Origin: Pseudomonas sp. S04
GTDB taxonomy: Bacteria > Pseudomonadota > Gammaproteobacteria > Pseudomonadales > Pseudomonadaceae
NCBI RefSeq assembly: GCF_009834545.1
Contig: NZ_CP019427.1
Coordinates: 4,842,001-4,906,000 of the forward strand
Length of the DNA: 64,000 bases
Direction: 5' to 3'
Shown here in pieces: positions 4,509 through 24,670 of this stretch (positions are counted from its first letter, which is position 1; each line of letters starts with the position of its first letter). A model generated the notes under the pieces. That model saw only the letters and a list, made by a program, of their open reading frames with translations. It ran no database searches and was not told the DNA's origin. The position numbers were made by a program, and so were the translations under genes.

Positions 4509-5258
4509 TCACGACCGCTTGAGAAACCCCGACAACGCCGCCAACGCTTCCGGCGAGCGCAGTCGTTGGACGAACAGCTTGCCCTCCTCCTCGACCACCC
4601 TGCGCAGCAGTTCGCGGTCCGGGGCCTTCATCAGTTGCTTGCTGATGCGCACAGCTTGCGGCGGTAGTTGATCGAAGCGCAGCGCCATCTCCCGCGCCTT
4701 GGCGAAGGTCGCTTCCGCGCTCGGCAATGCCTGGCTGGCAATGCCCCAGGCGGCGGCCTGCTCGCCGGTAAACGCTTCGCCCAGCAGCAACAATTCGGCC
4801 GCTTTGGCTTGGCCGAGCAGTCGCGGCAGGATCAGGCTGGAGCCGAACTCCGGACACAGACCCAGGTTGACGAATGGCATGCGCAACTTGGCATCGGCGC
4901 TGACGTATACCAGATCGCAATGCAGCAGCAGCGTGGTGCCGATGCCTACCGCGGCTCCGGCAACGGCGGCAACCACCGGCTTGCGGCACTCCAGCAGGCT
5001 GCGCATGAACTGGAACACCGGGCTGTCGAGATCACTCGGCGGCTCCTGGAGAAAGTCGGCGATATCATTGCCGGCGGTAAAGCACTGCAGGCTGCCAGTG
5101 ATCAGCACCGCATTGATCTCAGGGTCGGTATCCGCCTGTTGCAGGGCTGCGCCCAATTGGCTGTACATGGCGCGGGTCAGGGCGTTTTTCTTGTCCGGGC
5201 GATTCAGGCGCAACGTCAGCAGCCCGCCTTCGCGTTCCAGCAAAATGGCATCGGTCAT
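4509..5258 (-). CDS. enoyl-CoA hydratase/isomerase family protein
   Basis: A crotonase-fold enzyme of 249 residues, expected to act on acyl-CoA thioesters in fatty- or amino-acid breakdown. The oxyanion-hole loops FTAGND (60-65) and GAAVGIG (101-107) are present. One catalytic acid, E137 in LCPEFGSS, is in place; the other position is not clearly a glutamate, so isomerase or another crotonase chemistry is as likely as hydration. The start at MTDAIL is preferred over an ATG four codons earlier because the family begins there. It lies just downstream of the ferredoxin reductase, in an apparent operon with it and the diguanylate cyclase, as in P. aeruginosa. Confidence 0.85.
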   Translation of the reverse strand: MTDAILLEREGGLLTLRLNRPDKKNALTRAMYSQLGAALQQADTDPEINAVLITGSLQCFTAGNDIADFLQEPPSDLDSPVFQFMRSLLECRKPVVAAVAGAAVGIGTTLLLHCDLVYVSADAKLRMPFVNLGLCPEFGSSLILPRLLGQAKAAELLLLGEAFTGEQAAAWGIASQALPSAEATFAKAREMALRFDQLPPQAVRISKQLMKAPDRELLRRVVEEEGKLFVQRLRSPEALAALSGFLKRS

Positions 5259-5285: not shown

Positions 5286-6221
5286 TCAACCACGCGGCAG
5301 GAACACATCGGCCAGCAGTTGATTACGTGGCAGCCCTGCCAGGTACAAGCGCCGGGCAAAGGCGTCGACACTCTCAGGGCTCCCGCAGAGTAAGGCCAGG
5401 GTTTGCCGGGAAACAAGGCGCAATTGCGCCAAAGCCGCTGACAGCTCGGCCGCTGTCCACAGCTCGACACTCAGGTTGGCGCGGTTGGCTGCCAGTGCCG
5501 CCAGGGGTTTGGCCAGGTAATGCTCTGCCCCATCATGGGCCAGGTGAATCACCCGGATAGGCCCTTGATGATCCTGGCGCAGCGCTTCACGTAACACCCC
5601 GAACAGCGGCGCCAGCCCCGTACCTGCGGCCAGCAGCCACAGCGGACGGGTTTGCCAGTCAGGGTCGTAGTGCAAGGCCCCGCCGCGCAGTTCACCGAGG
5701 CGGATCGAATCACCGATCTTCAGCGCCCGGGCGGCATCGCTGAAGGCACCGGGCAGTCGGCAGTCGAGGTGAAACTCGAGGAATCGGTCTTCCTGCGGCA
5801 GGCTGGCCAGGGAGTACGGACGCGCCACGTGGCCGGCCCACAGCACCAAGTGTTGACCGGCCTGATAGCGCAGCGGGCGCTCGGCCAACAAACGCAGGCG
5901 CAACACACAGGGACTCAACCAGTCCAGCGCCTCGACCACGGCGGGGGCGCCGTCACGCAGCGGATCGAACACCGCCACCTGCAGGTCATCCAGCACCTCG
6001 CACTGACAGGCCAGGCGCCAGCCCTGCTGGCGCTGCCCGGCACTCAGAGCGTCCGGGCGACGGTCGCCGACCTCACCGCGCAGGCACTGCACCAGGCACG
6101 CGTGGCAACTGCCCGCCCGGCAACTGTAAGGCACCTGCAAACCCTGCTGATTCAAGGCATCAAGCAGGTTGCTGCCCGCCGCTACCGTCCATTGACGCTC
6201 ACCGACAGTCACTTCAGGCAT
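5286..6221 (-). CDS. 2Fe-2S ferredoxin / FAD-NAD(P)H reductase fusion
   Basis: A 311-residue electron-transfer protein of the phenol-hydroxylase / benzoate-dioxygenase reductase type. The N-terminal plant-type ferredoxin domain has C34, C39, C42 and C72 (CRAGSCHAC...ACQC). The FAD domain has RPYSLAS, and the C-terminal nucleotide domain has AAGTGLAPLFG. It would pass electrons from NAD(P)H through FAD to the 2Fe-2S centre; no partner oxygenase is nearby, so the acceptor is unknown. The ATG at 6221 is chosen because the ferredoxin fold starts at MPEVTVG; this overlaps the diguanylate cyclase gene by 8 bp and suggests translational coupling. Confidence 0.88.
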   Translation of the reverse strand: MPEVTVGERQWTVAAGSNLLDALNQQGLQVPYSCRAGSCHACLVQCLRGEVGDRRPDALSAGQRQQGWRLACQCEVLDDLQVAVFDPLRDGAPAVVEALDWLSPCVLRLRLLAERPLRYQAGQHLVLWAGHVARPYSLASLPQEDRFLEFHLDCRLPGAFSDAARALKIGDSIRLGELRGGALHYDPDWQTRPLWLLAAGTGLAPLFGVLREALRQDHQGPIRVIHLAHDGAEHYLAKPLAALAANRANLSVELWTAAELSAALAQLRLVSRQTLALLCGSPESVDAFARRLYLAGLPRNQLLADVFLPRG

Positions 6222-14535: not shown

Positions 14536-15168
14536 ATGCCCGACGATATCCACTTCTACGAACCTGCCCAGGGCCACGGCCTGCCCCACGACCCGTTCAA
14601 CGCCATCGTCGGCCCACGGCCTATTGGCTGGATTTCCTCGCAGGACGGCCAAGGCCGCCTGAATCTGGCGCCCTACAGTTTTTTCAATGCGTTCAACTAC
14701 ATCCCGCCGATCATCGGGTTCGCCAGCGTCGGACGCAAAGACAGCCTGAACAATATCGAACAGACCGGCGAGTTCGCCTGGAACCTGGCCACCCGCCCGC
14801 TGGCCGAGCAGATGAACCAGAGCTGCGCAATGGTCCCCGCCGACGTCAACGAATTTGAACTGGCGGGGCTCACCCCCGTCGCCTCAAAAATCATCCAGGT
14901 GCCGCGCGTCGCGCAAAGCCCGGTGTCCTTCGAGTGCAAGGTGACCCAGATCATTCAGTTGCAGCGTGCAGACCAGCAATTGGTGCCGAGCTGGCTGATC
15001 CTCGGCGAAGTGGTCGCCGTGCATATCGCCAAATGGCTGCTCAAGGATGGGGTGTACGACACCGCCGCGGCAGAACCGATTCTGCGCGGCGGCGGTCCGG
15101 CGGATTACTTCCAGCTAGGGCCTGAGGCCCTGTTCAAGATGCACCGCCCGGGGGCGACCAAGGCTTGA
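14536..15168 (+). CDS. flavin reductase-like (FMN-binding split-barrel) protein
   Basis: A 210-residue member of the flavin_reduct / DIM6-NTAB family. The N-terminal motif PFNAIVGPRPIGWISS (about 22-37) followed by NLAPYSFFNAFNYIPP is the typical FMN-phosphate and isoalloxazine contact region, and KDSLNNIEQTGEFAWNLA is the second conserved block. It is probably a flavin-dependent oxidoreductase acting alone or handing reduced flavin to a monooxygenase; no partner is adjacent, so the substrate is unknown. It is a single gene, starting at ATG after an upstream region that carries the preceding terminator, and it converges on the next small gene. Confidence 0.87.
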   Translation: MPDDIHFYEPAQGHGLPHDPFNAIVGPRPIGWISSQDGQGRLNLAPYSFFNAFNYIPPIIGFASVGRKDSLNNIEQTGEFAWNLATRPLAEQMNQSCAMVPADVNEFELAGLTPVASKIIQVPRVAQSPVSFECKVTQIIQLQRADQQLVPSWLILGEVVAVHIAKWLLKDGVYDTAAAEPILRGGGPADYFQLGPEALFKMHRPGATKA

Positions 15169-15177
15169 GGTATTGCT

Positions 15178-15408
15178 TTACCAGATGAGTTCACCGTCCT
15201 CACCGACGTCGGCCAATCGAGCCAGTTGCTGCTCGGCAGCCAGGTCGGCCTCCAGGGCGGTGTTGAACGTCTGGTCGATCAGTACCTTGTTGAAACGCGG
15301 GGCGCCCGCCCCACCGAGGGCCTTGACGGCGATGGCCGCGGTGTAACCTTCGTCACCGCGCACGGCGGCAGAAACGGCTTCGAACTGTGCAAACTCTTTA
15401 CGTGCCAT
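15178..15408 (-). CDS. conserved hypothetical protein (76 aa)
   Basis: A small soluble protein with the conserved-looking block KALGGAGAPRFNKVLIDQTF and an acidic C terminus ending GEDGELIW. No domain is recognised. The ATG at 15408 is chosen over one 33 bp upstream because AGGATCCGC is well spaced ahead of it. It is convergent with the flavin-reductase-like gene, with only nine bases between the stops. Coding is supported by codon use and by my recollection of similar short Pseudomonas proteins. Confidence 0.7.
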   Translation of the reverse strand: MARKEFAQFEAVSAAVRGDEGYTAAIAVKALGGAGAPRFNKVLIDQTFNTALEADLAAEQQLARLADVGEDGELIW

Positions 15409-15450
15409 GTTGCGGATCCTGGCCAATGGAAAGTCGGCCATTCTAAACCT

Positions 15451-15816
15451 TCAGCCGGCCAACTGCTGCATGGCCAGCGCATCGCAGGACGGATGCCCGG
15501 CGCGAGCCTGGTCGGCGCCGACATCGCTGAAGGTGTGGAAGTCCAGGCTATGAACTACTAACTCCTGGACCAACTCGCCGAAAACGGCCATGGCCGGGCT
15601 GCTGAAATAGGCGGTCATGGCCGGCTGGTCAACCCAGGAGCCGGACACCAGCCACAGCTGGGGGTCGCACAATGAGTGCTGCAGGGCAAAGTGCAGGTTG
15701 CCACTGGCCTGGCGCGTAGGCTCGATCAGGCAACTCAAACGCGCGCCCAACTCCATCGAGCGGCCTGCCTGGGCCCGGACCAACGCCATATGGCTGACGG
15801 GGATTTGCATGGACAT
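15451..15816 (-). CDS. antibiotic-biosynthesis-monooxygenase-fold protein
   Basis: About 121 residues in a ferredoxin-like dimeric alpha/beta barrel pattern: IPVSHMALVRAQAGR at the N terminus, then LGARLSCLIEPTRQASGNLHFALQHS, QLWLVSGSWVDQPAMTAYFSSPAM. This is the ABM layout (short strand, helix, E/S-W...A-x-x-x-Y...S). Such proteins degrade quinones or haem or are simple sensors; no specific activity can be assigned. Three close ATGs (15822, 15816, 15810) are possible; 15816 has the best spacing to AGGGAG. It lies upstream of the 76-residue gene in the same direction and may be cotranscribed. Confidence 0.72.
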   Translation of the reverse strand: MSMQIPVSHMALVRAQAGRSMELGARLSCLIEPTRQASGNLHFALQHSLCDPQLWLVSGSWVDQPAMTAYFSSPAMAVFGELVQELVVHSLDFHTFSDVGADQARAGHPSCDALAMQQLAG

Positions 15817-15822
15817 GTTCAT

Positions 15823-16152
15823 CGCTCCCTGGATGTAGACAATCGGCAGCCTGAGAGAAGCTGCGACAGGACCAGAGAATAAGCGCCAGGCTCAAGACTG
15901 GTTAGTCGATTCCTGCCGGCTTGTTGCACAATCCTGCGCCGACCGCCGGCGCATCGCTGTGTCCAGCGCATCTACCCGATGAAGATGACAAGAGTGTTTC
16001 AAGCAACGATCGCAGCCCTTTGCTGCGGTTCTGCAGGCGGTATCTACCACCACCGCAGGATCAGGCAAGTTTTGCGCAGGATCGGCCTAGCCCCAAGACT
16101 TGCACAAACTTAAGCTATGCCCATCCCATCAGCCTTACCGAGGATGTTCGCC
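15823..16152. other. 330-bp divergent intergenic region, nothing specific seen
   Basis: Separates the ABM-fold gene from the AraC regulator. It contains two loosely repeated GCAGGATC/GCAGGATCGG segments (about 16053 and 16077), but I could not identify a convincing promoter or operator. Confidence 0.4.
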
Positions 16153-17082
16153 ATGTCACCTGTGGATTCCAACCACACGCCACTTGACGCCAGCCTGGAG
16201 CACCAGCGCGCGGAACTGGCGGCCATCATCCGGCGTAACACCCAGGAGGACGGCAGCTACACCACTGCCATCAACGCGCTGGTGTTGTCACGCCACAGCC
16301 AGTCCCACGACTTTGCCCCGGTGCTCGCGCAGCCGGCGCTGTGCATCATGGCCCAAGGGCGCAAAGAGGTCAGGCTGGCCGACGAACTGTTCAACTACGA
16401 CCCGCTCAACTACCTGGTGGTCTCGGTCTCGATGCCCCTTAGCGGACGGGTGGTGGATGTCTCGCCCCAAGTGCCGATCCTGGCCTTGCGCCTGGACATC
16501 GACCCGACGGAAATCACCGCGTTGATTGCCGATGCCGGCCCCCTTGGCGTACCTGCCCGCCCTACCGGGCGGGGCCTGTATGTCGAACAGCTGGATCAAC
16601 CGATGCTCGACGCGGTGCTGCGCCTGGCGCGTTTGCTGGACACCCCCAAAGACATCGCCATGCTCGCGCCACTGATCCGCCGGGAGATTCTCTACCGTCT
16701 GCTGCGCAGCCCCCAAGGCCACCGGCTGTACGAAATCGCCATCGCCAACAGCCAGAGCCATCGCATCAGCCAGGCGATCAAATGGCTCAACGGCAACTTC
16801 GAGCAACCATTGCGTATCGATGACCTGGCCCGCGAGGTGAACCTGAGCGTCTCGACCCTGCACCACCGGTTCAAGGCAATGACCGCCATGAGTCCGTTGC
16901 AGTACCAGAAGCAACTGCGCCTGCAGGAGGCGCGGCGCCTGATGTTGGCCGAAGGCCTCGACGCCTCGGCGGCGGGATATCGCGTGGGCTATGAAAGCCC
17001 CTCGCAGTTCAGCCGCGAATACAGCCGGCTGTTTGGCGCACCGCCGCTGCGGGACCTGGCGCGGTTGCGACTGTCTGTCTGA
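16153..17082 (+). CDS. AraC-family regulator with AraC_N sensor domain
   Basis: A 309-residue transcription factor. The N-terminal half has the AraC_N (PF06719-type) pattern with QPALCIMAQGRKEVRL and FNYDPLNYLVVSVSMPL, and the C-terminal 100 residues have the double helix-turn-helix (IDDLAREVNLSVSTLHHRFKAM and AAGYRVGYESPSQFSREYSRLFG). The ATG at 16153 is preceded by GAGGA at eight bases; two earlier ATGs have no such site. Regulators of this subtype often control a neighbouring oxidoreductase; here the divergent ABM-fold gene is the nearest candidate target. Confidence 0.88.
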   Translation: MSPVDSNHTPLDASLEHQRAELAAIIRRNTQEDGSYTTAINALVLSRHSQSHDFAPVLAQPALCIMAQGRKEVRLADELFNYDPLNYLVVSVSMPLSGRVVDVSPQVPILALRLDIDPTEITALIADAGPLGVPARPTGRGLYVEQLDQPMLDAVLRLARLLDTPKDIAMLAPLIRREILYRLLRSPQGHRLYEIAIANSQSHRISQAIKWLNGNFEQPLRIDDLAREVNLSVSTLHHRFKAMTAMSPLQYQKQLRLQEARRLMLAEGLDASAAGYRVGYESPSQFSREYSRLFGAPPLRDLARLRLSV

Positions 17083-17143: not shown

Positions 17144-18199
17144 TCAGGCACCCAATACGCGGCAAGCCTCGGACGGAATGGTCACCGACACCGGGTTGCC
17201 GATGCTCAGCCCAATGCCCTGGCACGGTGTGCTCAAGGCGGTCAGCGAGACTCCGGAGCACTCCACCGTGGTTTCGATGGTTGCGCCGATATCTCGCACG
17301 AACGTCACCTTGCCCAGCAGGCGATTACCCGCAGTTGCCTGGGGATGGGACAGTTGCAGGTCTTCGGGGCGCACCAGCATCTTGAGCTTCTCGCCGACCA
17401 CGATACTGCTGCAGATCGGCACCGCCAGCGCGTCACCGCCCGGCAAGCTGACCCTGCCGTTGCCCAGCGCGGTCGCCGGGAAGATGTTGCCGGAGCCGAT
17501 GAAGTCCGCCACGAACGCGTTGGCCGGGTGCCGGTAGATCTCGATCGGCGTGCCGACCTGCTGGATCCGGTGCTCACCCAGGACCACCACGATGTCAGCC
17601 ATGGTCATGGCTTCGCGCTGGTCATGGGTGACCATGATGGTGGTGATGTTCAGGCGCTGTTGCAGTTGGCGGATTTCCACCTGCATCGACTCCCGCAGCT
17701 TGGCGTCCAGGGCAGACAGCGGCTCATCGAGCAGGAGAATTTTCGGGTGCGCGGCAATTGCCCGGGCAATCGCCACCCGTTGGCGCTGGCCCCCAGAGAG
17801 CTTGGCGACCGGGCGATCGATCATCGCTTGCAGCTGGATCAGTTCCAGCAACTCCACCACCCGCGCCTGCTGCTCGGCCTTGCCCACGCCGCGCAGCTTC
17901 AGGGGGTAGGCGATGTTCTCGCCCACGGTCATGTGCGGGAACAGTGCCAGCGACTGGAACACCATGCCGAAGTTGCGCAGGTGCGCCGGGGTGTTGCCGA
18001 TGTCCTCGCCGTCCAGGCGAATTTCGCCGCCACTGAGGGTTTCCAGGCCGGCGATCATCCGCAGCAAGGTGGTTTTGCCACAGCCCGAGGGGCCGAGAAA
18101 ACACACCAGCTTGCCCTCGGGCAAATGCAGGTTGACGTCCCTTACCGCGCAGGCCGAGCCGTAGTGTTTCTCGACGTTTTCCAGAATCAGACCAGTCAT
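17144..18199 (-). CDS. ABC importer ATPase, PotA/PotG type
   Basis: A 351-residue ATP-binding subunit of a polyamine/opine/phosphonate-type importer. It has Walker A GPSGCGKTT (about 38-46), the Q-loop, signature LSGGQRQRVAIARA, Walker B ILLLDEP, and a C-terminal TOBE domain (MLVRPEDLQLS). The ATG at 18199 follows TGAGGTG at good spacing. It is the last gene of a four-gene operon of binding protein, two permeases and ATPase. Substrate is not determined by the ATPase; the flanking decarboxylase and aldehyde dehydrogenase suggest an amine or guanidino compound. Confidence 0.92.
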   Translation of the reverse strand: MTGLILENVEKHYGSACAVRDVNLHLPEGKLVCFLGPSGCGKTTLLRMIAGLETLSGGEIRLDGEDIGNTPAHLRNFGMVFQSLALFPHMTVGENIAYPLKLRGVGKAEQQARVVELLELIQLQAMIDRPVAKLSGGQRQRVAIARAIAAHPKILLLDEPLSALDAKLRESMQVEIRQLQQRLNITTIMVTHDQREAMTMADIVVVLGEHRIQQVGTPIEIYRHPANAFVADFIGSGNIFPATALGNGRVSLPGGDALAVPICSSIVVGEKLKMLVRPEDLQLSHPQATAGNRLLGKVTFVRDIGATIETTVECSGVSLTALSTPCQGIGLSIGNPVSVTIPSEACRVLGA

Positions 18200-18217
18200 G
18201 TGAATCACCTCAAGCAA

Positions 18218-19066
18218 TCAGAAGGAAACGCCGCCTTCGCCCACCAGCTTCTCCAACGCCCAGATCAGGACGAAGTCGATCAGCACGATCAGCACGGCAA
18301 ACGAAAAAACGGTGGGATCCAGCGATGACACCGTGCGGCTGTACATCCAGATCGGCACGGTCATGACATCGATGGTGTAGAGGAAGTAGGTCACCGTGAA
18401 CTCGTTGAACGAGACGATGAACGCCAGCAGCATCCCGGCCAGGATCCCCGACTTCATCATGGGCACCACCACATCGACAATCGCCCGGGTCGGCGAGGCG
18501 CCGAGCATCTGCGCCGCCTCTTCGACTTCACTGCCGATCGACAGCATTGCCGCCGTGCAGTTCTTCACCACGAAGGGCAAGGCCAGGATCACGTGGGCAA
18601 TCACCAACCGCGAGGTGGCCATCTGGAACGGCAGGCTATCGAATACCAGCAGCAAGGCCAAGCCCAGCACCACCATCGGGAACACCAGCGGCAACGACAT
18701 CAGTTGCAGGGCCACCGCCTTGCCGCGGAACTCGCAACGGGTCAGGGCATAGGCCGCGGGCACTGCGATCAAGGTAGCGAACATCATGGTCAGGCACGCC
18801 ACCATCAAGCTGGTGGTCATGGCCTTGCCCAGGCTCAGCACATCGCTGGCATCCGGCGAGACAAAGGTGTGCCAGGCGGCCTTGTACCATTGCAGGCTGT
18901 AGCTGCTGGGCGGGAAGTCGAGGTTCGACGCGCCACTGAACGACATGACGATCATGGTCAGGATTGGCAACACCGCCAGCAGCAGGATGCAACCGGACAA
19001 CACTCCTGCCAGCTTGCCGGTGTCGCCCGGCAACAGCGCCTGGCGTGGCTTGAACAAACGACTCAT
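18218..19066 (-). CDS. ABC importer permease 2, PotC/PotI type
   Basis: A 282-residue inner-membrane permease with six predicted helices. The cytoplasmic EAA loop is EEAAQMLGASPTRAIVDVVVPMM (centred near residue 190), where it contacts the ATPase. The stop is 18 bp ahead of the ATPase start, and its own ATG overlaps the stop of permease 1 by 4 bp (ATGA), so the three are translationally coupled. Confidence 0.92.
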   Translation of the reverse strand: MSRLFKPRQALLPGDTGKLAGVLSGCILLLAVLPILTMIVMSFSGASNLDFPPSSYSLQWYKAAWHTFVSPDASDVLSLGKAMTTSLMVACLTMMFATLIAVPAAYALTRCEFRGKAVALQLMSLPLVFPMVVLGLALLLVFDSLPFQMATSRLVIAHVILALPFVVKNCTAAMLSIGSEVEEAAQMLGASPTRAIVDVVVPMMKSGILAGMLLAFIVSFNEFTVTYFLYTIDVMTVPIWMYSRTVSSLDPTVFSFAVLIVLIDFVLIWALEKLVGEGGVSF

Positions 19067-19971
19067 AACGAAGCCTCCAGCATGCGCCGGCGACGGCCGG
19101 TGATGTATTCAGAAAGAGCCATGATCGCCAGCGTGGTGACAATCAACACCACGCCGGCGGCAGACGCTGCGGGCCAGTTCATCAGCGGGGCGATCTGGTC
19201 GTGCACCATCACCGCCAGCATCGGTACGCGGCGGCCACCGAGCAGCAAGGGCACCACGAAGCTGCTGGCGTTGTAGGCAAACACCAGGGTCGCACCTGTA
19301 ATGATGCCGGGCAGGCTCATGGGCAGCACCACCTGGCGAAACACCTGCAGGCGACTGGCACCAAGGGTCGCCGCGGCTTCTTCATAGGTCCGGGCAACCC
19401 CACGCATGGCGCTGGCGATCGGCAACACGGCCAGGGGGAACGCGGTTTGCACCAGGCCCATCAACACGCCGTTCTGGTTGTACAGCAGCATGATCGGCCG
19501 CTTGATCAGGCCCAGGCCCATCAAGGCCTGGTTGAGCATCCCGCCTGGGCCGAGAATCACCAGCCAGCCATAGCTTTGCAGCAGCAGGTTGACCAGCAAC
19601 GGCAACAGCACCGCCGCCAGGAACACCCGCCGTAGCAAAGGCGAAGTCAGGCGCGACATGGTGTAGGCCACCGGGATCGCCAGCACCACGGCGATCACCG
19701 CGCTGATCAGCGCCAGGCGCAGGGTCAGCAGCAAGGACTTGAGGTAATAGGGTTCCAGCAACTGGGCGTAACTGGCCAGGCTGAAACCGCTCCACTCCGC
19801 ACCTTTGGTGCCCACGCTCATGCGCAGCACCAGCAGGCTGGCGATGATCAGCACGCCGAGGAACAGCATCGAGGGCGAGAGAAAAAACCAGGCACGCGCC
19901 GTCGGCGATACACCCCGGTTGCGACGCACGACAGCTGCGCCGACCGGATGGGTCAGGGGTTGGTGTTCCAT
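19063..19971 (-). CDS. ABC importer permease 1, PotB/PotH type
   Basis: A 302-residue inner-membrane permease. The first helix is ARAWFFLSPSMLFLGVLIIASL, and the EAA motif is YEEAAATLGASRLQVFRQVVLPMSLPGI. The start MEHQPLTH at 19971 is chosen; an ATG at 20001 would extend into poorly conserved sequence and neither has a strong ribosome-binding site. A REP pair separates it from the binding-protein gene, which may lower expression of the membrane components relative to the binding protein. Confidence 0.9.
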   Translation of the reverse strand: MEHQPLTHPVGAAVVRRNRGVSPTARAWFFLSPSMLFLGVLIIASLLVLRMSVGTKGAEWSGFSLASYAQLLEPYYLKSLLLTLRLALISAVIAVVLAIPVAYTMSRLTSPLLRRVFLAAVLLPLLVNLLLQSYGWLVILGPGGMLNQALMGLGLIKRPIMLLYNQNGVLMGLVQTAFPLAVLPIASAMRGVARTYEEAAATLGASRLQVFRQVVLPMSLPGIITGATLVFAYNASSFVVPLLLGGRRVPMLAVMVHDQIAPLMNWPAASAAGVVLIVTTLAIMALSEYITGRRRRMLEASL

Positions 19972-20024
19972 AGCAATGATCTCGTCAATGGAAGATCGGG
20001 GCATGGCGAGTACTGCGCACTCGA

Positions 20025-20086
20025 TCGCTGGCAAGCCAGCTCCCACAGGTCGTGCATGATTCTTGTAGGAGCTGGCTTGCCAGCGA
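20025..20086. repeat. inverted REP pair inside the ABC operon
   Basis: TCGCTGGCAAGCCAGCTCCCAC and its inverted partner GTAGGAGCTGGCTTGCCAGCGA, 18 bp apart, in the 146-bp gap between the binding-protein and permease genes. Such pairs commonly stabilise the upstream mRNA end. Confidence 0.85.
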
Positions 20087-20117: not shown

Positions 20118-21221
20118 TCAGGAAGAAAAGATTTCCGTGTAACGACGAATCCATTGGTCATGCACGCTCGCCAGGAAGGCGTTGTCGTGCATGATCGCCT
20201 TCTCGGCAATCTGCTCCGGCGTCAGGATGAATGGGCTCTTGCGGGCCTCGGCAGAGATGATGGCCTTGGCATTGACCGGGCCGTTGAAGATGTCTTCGGC
20301 CATCTTGCCCTGGACCAGCGGGTCCAAAGAGTGGTCGATGAAGGCGTAGGCCAGGTCGGTGTCGCCGGGACGGTTCTTCGGCATCACCGACAGCATCAGG
20401 TCGGTATAGAAACCTTCCTTCATGCCAAAAGTGGCGCCCAGGCCGTAGGCCGGATCGCGGATCTGCTTGGGGAAAAACGCCGGGGCGTACAGCCCACCCA
20501 TGTCCAGGGAACCGGTGCGGAACAGCTCGGCGATCTGGTTGGGGTTCTCCCCCAGGGTCACTACCCGGTCCTTGAGCTCGGCGAGCTTCTTGAAGCCCGG
20601 CTCGATGTTGTGCTCGTCACCGCCGGCCAGTTTCGCGGCGATGATGATCAGGTCCATGGCCTCGGTCCAGTTCGGCGGCGGCAGGAAGATATTCGGCGCC
20701 AGCTCCGCATCCCACAACGCGGCGTAGCTGGTTGGCGCTTCGCTCAGGGTGCGGGTGCTGTAGACCAGGCTGTTGCACCACAGCAGGTAACCAATGCCGT
20801 GGCCGTTGGCGCCAGTACGGTATTTCTCCGGCACATCGAGCAGGTTGGGAATCCGATTGAGATCGGGTTTTTCCAGCAGGCCGGCGGCGGCCAGGCCTTC
20901 GGCACCGACTCCGGCCAGGGTGATGATGTCGTACTGCGGGCGATCACCACCGGCCTTGAGCTTGGCGACCATTTCCGAAGTGCTGCCGGTGCGGTCGGCG
21001 ATGACCTTGGCGCCGGTCTTGGCCTCGAAGGTCGCGGCGATGTTGCGCAGTGCCGCAAGGCCGGTGTCATCGGACCAGGTCAATAGACGCAAGGTCTTGC
21101 CTTGAAAGCGCGTATCACTGGCGTTGGCGCGGATGAACGGCATGCTCATGGCGGCGGCCGCCACCGAGGCGACCCCAACGGTCTTGATGAATTGTCTTCT
21201 GTTCAGATCATGCTCGCCCAT
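20118..21221 (-). CDS. periplasmic binding protein of ABC importer, PotD/PotF type
   Basis: A 367-residue extracellular solute-binding protein of the spermidine/putrescine family (LRLLTWSDDTG, then GAKVIADRTGSTSEMVAKLKAG, then YDIITLAGVGAE). The leader is Tat-like: NRRQFIKTVGVASVAAAAMSMP with twin arginines at residues 8-9 and a cleavage site near ANA. It begins the importer operon. Its ligand is probably a small cationic or amine compound, inferred from family and neighbours. A 48-bp motif upstream is shared with the decarboxylase operon. Confidence 0.9.
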   Translation of the reverse strand: MGEHDLNRRQFIKTVGVASVAAAAMSMPFIRANASDTRFQGKTLRLLTWSDDTGLAALRNIAATFEAKTGAKVIADRTGSTSEMVAKLKAGGDRPQYDIITLAGVGAEGLAAAGLLEKPDLNRIPNLLDVPEKYRTGANGHGIGYLLWCNSLVYSTRTLSEAPTSYAALWDAELAPNIFLPPPNWTEAMDLIIIAAKLAGGDEHNIEPGFKKLAELKDRVVTLGENPNQIAELFRTGSLDMGGLYAPAFFPKQIRDPAYGLGATFGMKEGFYTDLMLSVMPKNRPGDTDLAYAFIDHSLDPLVQGKMAEDIFNGPVNAKAIISAEARKSPFILTPEQIAEKAIMHDNAFLASVHDQWIRRYTEIFSS

Positions 21222-21355
21222 GAAGGACTCCCTCTATTGTTGTTGATTTGAGGTGGCTGCATCCCTTGCGACCGCGCTGTTCGATCGCTGCAAACCCCTG
21301 TGCTACAAGGGCTTTGGCGATGTCGGCGGGTTCATCCTGAGGTCACGCCCTGAGC

Positions 21356-21403
21356 GCAACAATCGAAAAAAAATCATTGGTGCCATGTCCCGCACGCATG
21401 CCT
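21356..21403. promoter_or_regulatory. shared 48-bp motif, copy 1 (importer operon)
   Basis: An ungapped 48-bp match (37 identical) to 24623-24670. The conserved blocks are GCAACAATCGA, AAAAA, TCAT, GCCATGTCC and CATGCCT. It lies 135 bp upstream of the binding-protein ATG, in the same orientation relative to its operon as copy 2. Likely a common operator or promoter region. Confidence 0.7.
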
Positions 21404-21418
21404 CGTGACGAGGCATGC
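21396..21418. terminator. hairpin between aldehyde dehydrogenase and importer operon
   Basis: GCATGCCTCG-TGA-CGAGGCATGC, a perfect 10-bp stem located just downstream of the aldehyde dehydrogenase stop. It has no clear T run, so termination is only likely; it overlaps the end of the shared motif. Confidence 0.5.
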
Positions 21419-21437
21419 AGGGCCCGTTTTCGGGCAG

Positions 21438-22886
21438 TCAGACGGCGCGAATCACGTGTTTTATTTCCTGGAATGCCTGCAAACCCCACGGCCCCAACTC
21501 GCGACCGAGACTGCTCTGCTTGTAGCCACCCCAGGCGGCCTGCGGGAAGATCACTTGCGGCGCGTTGATCCACACCAGCCCCGCCTGCAGCGCGTCGGCG
21601 ACCCGCTGCGCAGCGCTCGCATCGCCGCTGACGACACTGGCCACCAGGCCGAACTGACTGTCGTTGGCCAGCGCGATGGCTTCCTGCTCACTGGCAAAAC
21701 GGCGCACGCAAAGCACCGGCCCAAAGATCTCCTCGCACCACAGCGCACTGTCCAGGGGCACGTCGGTGAACACCGTCGGCTGCAAAAAATACCCGCGCGG
21801 CAGGTCCGCCGGACGCCCGCCACCACACACCAGCCGCGCACCGGCGCTCAGGCCGCGATCGATATGGCCCAGCACTCGCTGGTATTGCGCCTGGTTGACC
21901 AGCGCGCCCATCTCCACCTCGGGGTCGAACGGCTCAGCCACGCGGATCGACTCGGCACGACTCTTCAGGCGTTGCAGGAACTCGTCCGCCAGTGCATCGG
22001 CCACCAGCACCCGGCTGGTGGCGGAGCACATCTGCCCGGCGTTGAAGAATCCGCCGCCACTGGCCAGCTCCACCGCCAGGTCGAGGTCGGCGTCGGCCAT
22101 CACCAGCAACGACGATTTACCGCCCAGTTCCAGGCTCACCCCCTTGATGGTTTCAGCCGCCCGTTGCATGACCTGGACGCCCACCGCGTTGCTGCCGGTG
22201 AAGGAAATCTTCGCCACCCGCGGATCGCCCGACAGCGGTGCCCCCACCGCCAGGCCTGTGCCGCAGACCAGATTGAACACGCCGTTGGGCAAGCCGCTCT
22301 GGGCGATGATCGCCGCCAGTTCCAGCTCTGGCAGCGGAGTGACCTCGGAGGGCTTGAGCACCACGCAGCAACCGGCGGCCAGGGCCGGTGCGAGTTTCCA
22401 GGCGGTGGTGACCATGGGGAAATTCCACGGCACGATCAGCCCGACCACGCCGCAGGGCTCCCGGCGCACGCGGGCGGCAAACGCCTCGCTCGGCAGCTCC
22501 AGCGGGCGGTCCTGACTGGCGTCCAGCGCCTCTGCCAGGCCGGCGTAGTACTCGAAGGTGGCGATCACGTCATCGACGTCGATCCCGGCTTCAAACAGCG
22601 GTTTGCCGTTGTTGCTCGACTGCAGGTACATCAGCCGTTCACGGCCTGCCTGCACGCCCGAGGCAATGCGGCGCAGGATCGCCCCGCGCGCGGCGCCCGA
22701 GGTGTTCGACCATTGGGCAAAGGCCGCGGTGGCGGCACTCAGTGCGCGATCCACCGCCGTTTCGTCGCCGCCGTTGACAGTGGTCAACAGGGCTTCGGTC
22801 GCCGGGTTGATGACCCGCAGGTGTTCGCTGCCCGCCGACCATTGGCCATCGATGTACAAACCGTCCTGGGTAATCGGGAAGCTCAT
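21438..22886 (-). CDS. NAD(P)-dependent aldehyde dehydrogenase
   Basis: A 482-residue aldehyde dehydrogenase oxidising an aldehyde to its acid. It has the cofactor-site motif NFPMVTTAWKLAPALAAG, the general base E in LELGGKS (about 252), and catalytic Cys in FFNAGQMCSATSRV (about 286). The ATG overlaps the stop of the TPP enzyme (ATGA), so the decarboxylase product is the obvious substrate: an aldehyde such as 4-guanidinobutyraldehyde if the decarboxylase is AruI-like. It is placed like KauB-type enzymes, but substrate is inferred from context only. Confidence 0.9.
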   Translation of the reverse strand: MSFPITQDGLYIDGQWSAGSEHLRVINPATEALLTTVNGGDETAVDRALSAATAAFAQWSNTSGAARGAILRRIASGVQAGRERLMYLQSSNNGKPLFEAGIDVDDVIATFEYYAGLAEALDASQDRPLELPSEAFAARVRREPCGVVGLIVPWNFPMVTTAWKLAPALAAGCCVVLKPSEVTPLPELELAAIIAQSGLPNGVFNLVCGTGLAVGAPLSGDPRVAKISFTGSNAVGVQVMQRAAETIKGVSLELGGKSSLLVMADADLDLAVELASGGGFFNAGQMCSATSRVLVADALADEFLQRLKSRAESIRVAEPFDPEVEMGALVNQAQYQRVLGHIDRGLSAGARLVCGGGRPADLPRGYFLQPTVFTDVPLDSALWCEEIFGPVLCVRRFASEQEAIALANDSQFGLVASVVSGDASAAQRVADALQAGLVWINAPQVIFPQAAWGGYKQSSLGRELGPWGLQAFQEIKHVIRAV

Positions 22887-24520
22887 GCCAACACCGCCTT
22901 CTGCCATTGATCCTGGTCGATTTCAATCAGGCTCGGGCCCTGGCGATCCACCGCGGCCCGCAGCGCCGCTCGTAGTTCATCCAGCCCATTGATGGTCTGG
23001 GCCGCACAGCCCAGGCCCTTGGCCACGGTGATGAAATCCGGGGTATAGATGTCGACGCCCACCGGTTCAATGGCGCGGTTGACCATGTACTTCTTGATCT
23101 CTTCGTAGCCCTGGTTATTCCACAGCAGGACGATCACCGGTGTGCGCGCTTCCACGGCACTGGCCAGTTCCGGCAAGGTGAACTGCAGGCCGCCGTCACC
23201 GATCAGGCACACCACCGGGGGCCGGGTGTCGCGCGCCTGGCCACCGCCGAGCCAGGCGCCGATGGCCGCCGGCAAAGCGTAACCGAGGGTGCCGTAACCG
23301 GTGGATGAGTTGAACCAGCGACGCGGGCGCTGCGGATTGAATGTCAGGTTGCCGCTGTACACCGGTTGGGTTGAATCGCCGACGAACACCGCCTCTGGCA
23401 AGACCTCCTGCACGGTTTGCAGGAACAGCGTCTGGGCCAGGGTCGGTGCGTCCCAGGTACTTGCCAGTTCAGCCCGCAGGCTGGCCGCGCGGGCCTGGCC
23501 CCAATCGCTACGGCGCTCGGCCAGGGCATGTTTGGCCACGCCATCGAGCAGGGCTTGGGCGGCATATTGCGCATCCGCCACCAGCGCGACTTTCGGCGGG
23601 TAGTTGCGCACGGTCTGGTCCGGGTCGATGTCGACCCGCAGCAGCGTCCCGGGAATTTTGAAGCCGCCGGCAAAGGTCACGTCGTAATCGGTTTCCGCCA
23701 GTTCGGTGCCGATCGCCAGCACCACATCGGCGTCCGCTACCAGGGCGCGGGTCGCCACCAGGGATTGGGTCGAGCCGATCAGCAAGGGGTGCTCTGCGGG
23801 CAGCATGCCTTTGGCATTGATGGTCAGGGCCACCGGCGCGTCCAGCAGCTCGGCCAGGCGGGTCAGTTCGACGGCGGCTTCGATCGAACCGCCACCGGCG
23901 AGAATCAGCGGACGCTGGGCGTTTGCCAGCAGTTCACTCATCTGTGCCACGGCCGACGGCGCGGCGCCAGCGCGGGTAATGTTTACCGGCTGGCTGCCTT
24001 GCAGGGCGTCGGCGTCTTCCACCAGCACATCGAGGGGAATCTCGATGTGCACCGGACGCGGACGCCCGGCCTGGAACAGGGCGAAGGCCCGGGCCAGCAC
24101 GCCCGGCAGCTCGGCGGCCGACATCAGTGTATGGGAAAACGCCGCCACACCTGCCACCAGGGCACCCTGGTTCGGCAGTTCGTGCAGCTTGCCGCGACCG
24201 CCGCCCAACTGGCTGCGCGACTGCACGCTGGAGATCACCAGCATCGGGATCGAGTCGGCATAGGCCTGGCCCATGGCGGTGGTGATATTGGTCATGCCGG
24301 GACCGGTGATGATGAAGCACACCCCAGGTTTTCCGCTGGTGCGGGCATAGCCGTCGGCCATGAACCCGGCGCCCTGTTCGTGGCGCGGCGTGACGTGGTT
24401 GATGCTCGAACGGGCCAGCCCGCGATACAGCTCAACGGTGTGGACCCCGGGAATGCCGAATACCTGCTCGACCCCGTAGCCTTCGAGTAACTTGACCAAT
24501 ACTTCGCCGCACGTCGCCAT
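22883..24520 (-). CDS. TPP-dependent 2-oxo acid decarboxylase, AruI-like
   Basis: A 545-residue member of the acetolactate-synthase / benzoylformate-decarboxylase fold. It has the N-terminal Pyr domain with the cofactor-activating glutamate in RHEQGAGFMADGYART (about 48), a central domain, and the C-terminal PP domain with the TPP/Mg motif GDGGLQFTLPEL ending LLWNN. It most resembles proteins annotated as 5-guanidino-2-oxopentanoate decarboxylase (AruI) of the arginine transaminase pathway. No AruH-type transaminase lies nearby, so the true 2-oxo acid may differ. The start MATCGEV at 24520 excludes a 19-residue leader lacking similarity. First gene of a two-gene operon with the dehydrogenase. 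Confidence 0.85.
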   Translation of the reverse strand: MATCGEVLVKLLEGYGVEQVFGIPGVHTVELYRGLARSSINHVTPRHEQGAGFMADGYARTSGKPGVCFIITGPGMTNITTAMGQAYADSIPMLVISSVQSRSQLGGGRGKLHELPNQGALVAGVAAFSHTLMSAAELPGVLARAFALFQAGRPRPVHIEIPLDVLVEDADALQGSQPVNITRAGAAPSAVAQMSELLANAQRPLILAGGGSIEAAVELTRLAELLDAPVALTINAKGMLPAEHPLLIGSTQSLVATRALVADADVVLAIGTELAETDYDVTFAGGFKIPGTLLRVDIDPDQTVRNYPPKVALVADAQYAAQALLDGVAKHALAERRSDWGQARAASLRAELASTWDAPTLAQTLFLQTVQEVLPEAVFVGDSTQPVYSGNLTFNPQRPRRWFNSSTGYGTLGYALPAAIGAWLGGGQARDTRPPVVCLIGDGGLQFTLPELASAVEARTPVIVLLWNNQGYEEIKKYMVNRAIEPVGVDIYTPDFITVAKGLGCAAQTINGLDELRAALRAAVDRQGPSLIEIDQDQWQKAVLA

Positions 24521-24622
24521 GTCTTTGCCCTTCTTGTTCGTTGAGACGCTGACCCCGCGCGACATTGGTTGCTGCACGACGGGGCTCAGTCATGGCGTTA
24601 TTGGAACGGTCTGCGGGTAGCC

Positions 24623-24670
24623 GCAACAATCGATAAAAAGTCATACTCGCCATGTCCTCACCTCATGCCT
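24623..24670. promoter_or_regulatory. shared 48-bp motif, copy 2 (decarboxylase operon / LysR)
   Basis: Partner of 21356-21403. It sits 103 bp upstream of the decarboxylase ATG and immediately in front of the divergent LysR gene, the usual place for a LysR operator. TCGATTGTTGC on the minus strand is the best-conserved part. Confidence 0.7.

Follow-up and report, generated by a model that had tools for sequence, protein, structure and literature searches.

Putative operators of a GcvA-like LysR regulator before an importer operon and a decarboxylase/dehydrogenase operon in Pseudomonas sp. S04

Introduction

When two neighbouring operons are preceded by nearly the same sequence, does the similarity reflect a common control, and by which regulator? 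The question is raised by a locus of Pseudomonas sp. S04 located within positions 4842001-4906000 of its single-contig 6.1-Mb genome, a stretch of 64,000 nucleotides hereafter called the window. The minus strand carries the genes of a thiamine pyrophosphate (TPP)-dependent enzyme and of an aldehyde dehydrogenase, then a four-gene ATP-binding cassette (ABC) importer (21221-17144), and a LysR-type regulator is encoded divergently on the plus strand (Table 1). A preliminary description had noticed a 48-bp motif before each operon and explained it as a shared LysR operator linking importer and enzymes into one regulon. As judged from the sequences compared here, it is highly probable that the GcvA-like LysR regulator, encoded divergently, has its operators in the two copies, so that importer and enzymes form a two-operon regulon for uptake and degradation, and the importer and degradation operons are probably switched on together.

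Two similar stretches before two operons

The stretches 21356-21403 and 24623-24670 align without gaps on the same strand and are identical at 37 of 48 bases, as first reported. Their distances to the start codons of the importer (135 bp, start at 21221) and of the TPP enzyme (103 bp, start at 24520) are confirmed, and copy 2 indeed stands directly before the divergent LysR gene, whose start codon (24680) lies 10 bp past it. Among 1000 pairs of dinucleotide shuffles of both intergenic regions, searched in both orientations, the best 48-base match averaged 24.6 identities with a maximum of 29, and none reached the observed 37. When 21300-21450 was compared by BLAST with the whole genome, copy 2 was the top non-self match (E 7.8e-4), followed by the query's own inverted repeat on the opposite strand (E 0.0027) and then by matches from E 0.12; copy 2 is the sole other same-strand match below E 0.1 for this 151-base query.

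The sites used for model R2 were 20 of copy 1 and 20 of the 41 of copy 2. In the own genome, the model of both copies finds two strong sites only (E 2.3e-15 and 9.5e-13), the third having an E-value of 0.9 over 23 positions. Paralogous TPP loci (L156, L157) were considered as additional targets and rejected, as they fall outside the four own-genome sites found at E <= 10.

Anatomy of the element

The consensus of the element is ACWA-N12-CAT-N6-YATG-N9-CAT. It holds the box typical of LysR-type transcriptional regulators (LTTRs), T-N11-A, present here as ATG-N9-CAT in every copy counted, and an A/T-rich half overlapping the predicted -35; both 48-bp stretches end on the LTTR-box dyad. Start sites were predicted from two conserved blocks, ATCCTG before the importer operon and ATTGGA before the TPP-enzyme operon (Table 1). 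These predicted starts lie about 65 bp downstream of the ATG-N9-CAT centre of copy 1 (21392) and about 66 bp downstream of that of copy 2 (24659), and the predicted -35 coincides with ACAA on the plus strand, read as TTGT on the minus strand. A possible -10 of the LysR gene adjoining the recognition site is suggested by the alignment rows, which read CATAC or CATGC in copy 2 and CATTG or CATCG in copy 1; such a position would permit the regulator to repress itself.

Conservation across relatives

The survey covered 249 genomes, among which 173 bear the LysR gene (own genome included) and 76 do not. From the former, 40 relatives were fetched, picked to span 69-91% LysR identity. A second set, the named loci, consists of the best 80 among 391 loci that include a LysR relative, all in Pseudomonas records; it partly overlaps the first, so that the two are not independent. 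Within these best 80, the closest locus belongs to P. kielensis (LysR 98% identical over 293 residues), and the close relative P. fluorescens FW300-N2E3 (LysR 94%) has this locus too, including the two putative operators.

All 40 fetched relatives have a TPP-gene match beside LysR, and 19 of them include the importer. With the window counted, every one of the 41 LysR/TPP intergenic regions of this first set contains the element (N6 being N7 in three of them), and so do all 20 of its importer leaders; for the named loci the counts are 80 of 80 intergenic regions and 78 of 78 importer leaders. Mean pairwise identity across species is 0.82 within the motif; in the intergenic remainder it drops to 0.40 for copy 2 and to 0.65 for copy 1. 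The distance from motif to start codon varies from 58 to 174 for copy 2 and from 131 to 173 for copy 1 (values being approximate for L050 and L074, in which the TPP and the LysR start codon, respectively, were misplaced by extrapolation), whereas the internal spacing is near-fixed. The check proposed in the preliminary description, conservation of the motif in orthologous loci, thus gave a positive answer in related strains.

L216, L218 and L225 at first seemed to lack copy 1, which proved to be an artefact of an over-strict pattern and a split alignment; ATG-N9-CAT is present in all three. In L225, the importer binding-protein gene aligns as two overlapping pieces, as if broken, and the operator is retained.

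Outside the genus, copy 2 persists in two genomes from a different genus within the family, whose LysR proteins are 72-74% identical. A search across the order gave a LysR match at E <= 1e-80 in 6 of 194 genomes. For two loci from two other families (L256 and L257, LysR homologues 44-47% identical), no TPP-gene match was found within the 1.5-kb flanks, and inspection by eye of the upstream stretch of L256 revealed no clear motif.

Copy 1 could also be a non-working relic of a promoter duplicated when the importer was gained, as the importer occurs in a minority of the fetched loci and copy 1 resembles copy 2. However, the element is kept in every importer leader of both sets while its surroundings diverge, and ATG-N9-CAT outlasts the loss of a hairpin overlapping copy 1 (see below), which leaves very little probability for such a relic.

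Blind recovery of the importer site

Model R1 was trained only on LysR-side copies, taken from 21 importer-less loci. In all 20 importer genomes, none of which was in the training set, it recovers the importer copy, with E-values from 2.6e-4 to 0.68 and over at least 44 of the 53 model positions. This copy ranks second among the matches in 18 genomes and third in two (G183, G237). The 19 importer-less genomes, all of them training genomes, gave no full-length second site, their extra partial matches being limited to 25 positions or fewer; every second near-full-length site in the 39 genomes of the test preceded an importer. The evidential weight of this test lies in the regular recovery at one place and not in the individual E-values.

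R1 also gave 14 further partial matches, seven in importer genomes and seven in importer-less ones, several of which span positions 29-52 only. Eight of the 14 were fetched and rejected as additional regulon members; seven of these lie inside open frames. Five share one type of reading frame, which we take to be DNA polymerase IV-like (dinB), and those of L149 and L155 lie inside other frames. The eighth (L154, from G061), located between two open frames, may still be a regulon member.

The hairpin overlapping copy 1

Within a 98-base stretch that folds with a z of -2.7, the right half-site of copy 1 forms one arm of a hairpin (Table 1). A strong hairpin at this place might mean that the two copies share an RNA element or a terminator and no operator at all. 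We give this explanation next to no credence: no such repeat is seen by eye at copy 2, nor in the 170 bases after the dehydrogenase gene of 14 importer-less loci, and in 25 of 78 named relatives the copy-1 hairpin is replaced or degraded while ATG-N9-CAT stays.

The 20 importer leaders of the first set all show the hairpin pattern itself, as do 53 of the 78 named ones. By eye, about 18 of the 25 deviating leaders carry a hairpin resembling repetitive extragenic palindromes (REP-like) and seven have a degenerate, mismatched or missing arm; ATG-N9-CAT is kept in all 78 leaders, and in L216 the outer CCT of the right half-site is lost. The REP-like hairpins (TGTAGGAGCGAGC...GCTCGCGA) stand at or just past the GCATGCCTC arm, where they disrupt the copy-1 hairpin and spare ATG-N9-CAT, as in L173, L181, L188, L194, L218 and L225. 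The idea that the hairpin, through a third AGGCATG half-site, is an essential part of the operator was rejected, because the 25 deviating leaders retain ATG-N9-CAT. A scan for T-run terminators gave no match at the hairpin, and no T-run follows the repeat. Since the hairpin varies while ATG-N9-CAT stays, it probably forms the 3' terminus of the dehydrogenase transcript and has bases in common with the operator.

Link of the motif to LysR and related dyads

Strong R1 matches (E 7.2e-5 or better) are found in 173 of 173 LysR genomes versus one of the 76 LysR-less genomes, 18 of the latter having weaker matches, up to E 1. Orthologues of the importer binding protein (E <= 1e-120) occur in 70 of the 249 genomes, and all 70 carry LysR. 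These data bear on whether the copies might be operators of another regulator, such as the AraC-type gene product encoded at 16117-17082, with LysR as a mere neighbour. The AraC-type gene is indeed a frequent neighbour of the locus, with or without the importer. Nevertheless, the motif is an LTTR box, its strong copies co-occur with the LysR gene across genomes, the second near-full-length sites of the blind test all stand before an importer, and related dyads in two genomes adjoin another LysR gene. A regulator other than LysR is therefore improbable, without being negligible.

Related dyads were sought with the combined model in 12 LysR-less genomes out of 76, chosen because R1 matched them weakly; two of the 12 gave no match, and G106 gave a 41-position match with an E-value of 0.39. 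For G120 and G229, the best motif site stands directly before a different LysR gene, whose product is 40% identical to that of the window and which is divergent from a transporter gene, presumably MATE-like to judge from its sequence. The dyad can thus mark other LysR genes too. In L251 (~6008-6030) and L253 (~6023-6045), from two Pseudomonas genomes without the LysR of the window, the form AGGCATG-N9-CATGCCT separates a MATE-like gene from a GcvA-like LysR gene divergent to it. The G161 genome, also LysR-less, has a similar dyad (L252, ~5069-5090) near genes named by eye as aldehyde-dehydrogenase-like and oxidoreductase-like.

It may tentatively be proposed, as a possibility we rather doubt, that AGGCATG-N9-CATGCCT is an operator code common to a GcvA-like LysR branch in Pseudomonas. 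Outside this regulon, it would mark the divergon of a MATE-type pump and LysR in two genomes, a third genome having a comparable dyad ahead of a distantly PotD-like importer gene; here it would wire a dedicated pathway for taking up and decarboxylating a 2-oxo acid or its amino precursor.

The proposed regulon

Several points weigh against a LysR operator shared by both operons. The co-occurrence of motif and LysR is partly simple linkage, because copy 2 adjoins lysR. Importer and enzyme genes are adjacent in all loci having both (19 fetched, 78 named), so that no decoupled importer tests the link. The dyad of the LysR-less G161 precedes the gene of a PotD-like importer binding protein only 25% identical to that of the window. 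Most importer-copy E-values of the blind test are weak, 14 of the 20 exceeding 0.05, and a partial match ranks above the importer copy in G183 and G237. Finally, a scan for consensus sigma-70 promoters gave no match and the predicted -10 hexamers are weak, a weakness expected if the promoters are activated, as presumed.

The shared LysR operator is nonetheless what the ensemble of the data points to: both promoters have an LTTR-box dyad whose spacing is fixed, the element is conserved throughout the genus, the importer site was recovered blind, the own genome has only two strong sites, and the motif co-occurs with LysR. In the mechanism proposed, the recognition site (ATG-N9-CAT) would lie about 65 bp upstream of the predicted weak promoter of each operon, the A/T-rich activation half would run into the -35 (ACAA on the plus strand), and a tetramer of the regulator would cover some 50-60 bp. 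Once inducer is present, LysR would bring RNA polymerase to both operons, that of the TPP enzyme and dehydrogenase and that of the importer, making importer and enzymes one substrate-induced regulon of two operons. Because the copy-2 box overlaps the predicted lysR start, LysR probably also represses its own gene via copy 2.

Regarding the substrate, a route from 2-oxo acid to aldehyde to acid fits the enzyme pair. The candidate amines put forward in the preliminary description are not established, as this label depends on the names of families matched by the importer and the dehydrogenase, proteins that miss the curated cut-offs of those families; an amine is a guess. Here an orphan ABC importer is tied to two enzymes, one TPP-dependent and the other an aldehyde dehydrogenase, and this tie would narrow the substrate search, since the inducer of one should induce the other. 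The outcome would be a compact two-operon regulon with an exact operator consensus, open to experiment.

Genes of the locus

The LysR-type regulator has both PF00126 (HTH_1) and PF03466 (LysR substrate-binding) above cut-off. The TPP enzyme passes the cut-off of NF005712, by name the 5-guanidino-2-oxopentanoate decarboxylase subfamily, and may act on 2-ketoarginine; two more proteins of the same genome also exceed this cut-off. The aldehyde dehydrogenase matches 42 NCBIfam families and scores under the curated cut-offs of all 25 listed, including betaine-aldehyde dehydrogenase (TIGR01804, 493 bits, cut-off 668.6). The importer binding protein is below the cut-offs of its five NCBIfam families, with 34 bits for PotD (cut-off 582) and 32 for PotF (cut-off 636). 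Beyond the importer, flavin-reductase-like, small monooxygenase-like and AraC-type genes (14536-17082) are frequent neighbours in loci with or without the importer; the first two names were assigned by eye, an NCBIfam scan having given no match.

Table 1. Coordinates of the predicted regulatory elements and genes in the window
Feature	Position	Strand	Basis
Operator copy 1 (putative), upstream of importer operon	21356..21403	- (read toward importer)	identity with copy 2, conservation, blind model
LTTR box copy 1, GCCATG-N9-CATGCC (ATG-N9-CAT = T-N11-A)	21382..21402	.	alignment
Operator copy 2 (putative), between TPP-enzyme operon and divergent LysR gene	24623..24670	-	conservation
LTTR box copy 2, GCCATG-N9-CATGCC	24649..24669	.	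alignments; AGGCATG-N9-CATGCCT in some relatives
Predicted weak -10 of importer promoter, CAGGAT on minus strand	21334..21339	-	conserved block CATCCTGAG, importer-leader alignment
Predicted weak -10 of TPP-enzyme promoter, TCCAAT on minus strand	24600..24605	-	conserved ATTGGA block
Possible LysR -10, TCATACT, adjoining recognition site	24641..24647	+	inference
Inverted repeat GCATGCCTC-N5-GAGGCATGC, 23 bp	21396..21418	.	RNA fold; overlaps right half-site of copy 1
LysR-type regulator, GcvA-like subfamily, 299 aa	24680..25579	+	Pfam HTH_1 and LysR_substrate
TPP-dependent decarboxylase-like enzyme, 545 aa	22883..24520	-	NCBIfam NF005712, 875 bits (cut-off 500)
Aldehyde dehydrogenase	21438..22907	-	Pfam Aldedh; listed open frame overlaps TPP-enzyme gene end
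ABC importer substrate-binding protein, remotely PotD/PotF-like	20118..21221	-	Pfam SBP_bac_8; remote PDB matches
Importer permeases	19063..20046, 18218..19066	-	NCBIfam spermidine/putrescine-like among others; below cut-offs among families listed
Importer ATPase	17144..18217	-	NCBIfam spermidine/putrescine-like among others; below cut-offs among families listed

Comparison with known systems

Local LysR regulons with two operators are already well known and constitute a textbook arrangement; no description of this particular regulon was recognised among the literature matches listed. AruI is the 2-ketoarginine decarboxylase of a P. aeruginosa pathway, to which the TPP enzyme of the window is likened by the name of family NF005712. 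Unlike in the AruI system, no transaminase gene is seen beside the TPP-enzyme gene, and the genome has three NF005712 members. GcvA gives the best NCBIfam match of the LysR regulator (PRK11139, 262 bits) as well as its best PDB match (8y6u), but this score stays under the curated cut-off of 288, and no glycine-cleavage genes are seen at the locus.

A parallel in arrangement is the lys box of PltR, as presented in PMC3382589: a Pseudomonas LTTR divergent from its target, with a palindromic T-N11-A box upstream of the -35. The PltR dyad differs in being made of two 9-bp repeats with a 4-bp gap, and it serves another pathway; binding of PltR to its box is shown there, whereas that of the LysR studied here is predicted. 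In PMC8407307, an LTTR site is described as spanning 50-60 bp, its T-N11-A box standing near -65 and its activation site at -35/-10. The locus resembles the classical divergent LTTR pairs described there by a T-N11-A recognition site, which would lie near -65, by an activation half predicted to fall at the -35, by its divergent target operon, and by a site overlapping the predicted start of the regulator's own gene; it differs from them by a second putative operator, placed before an importer operon two genes away.

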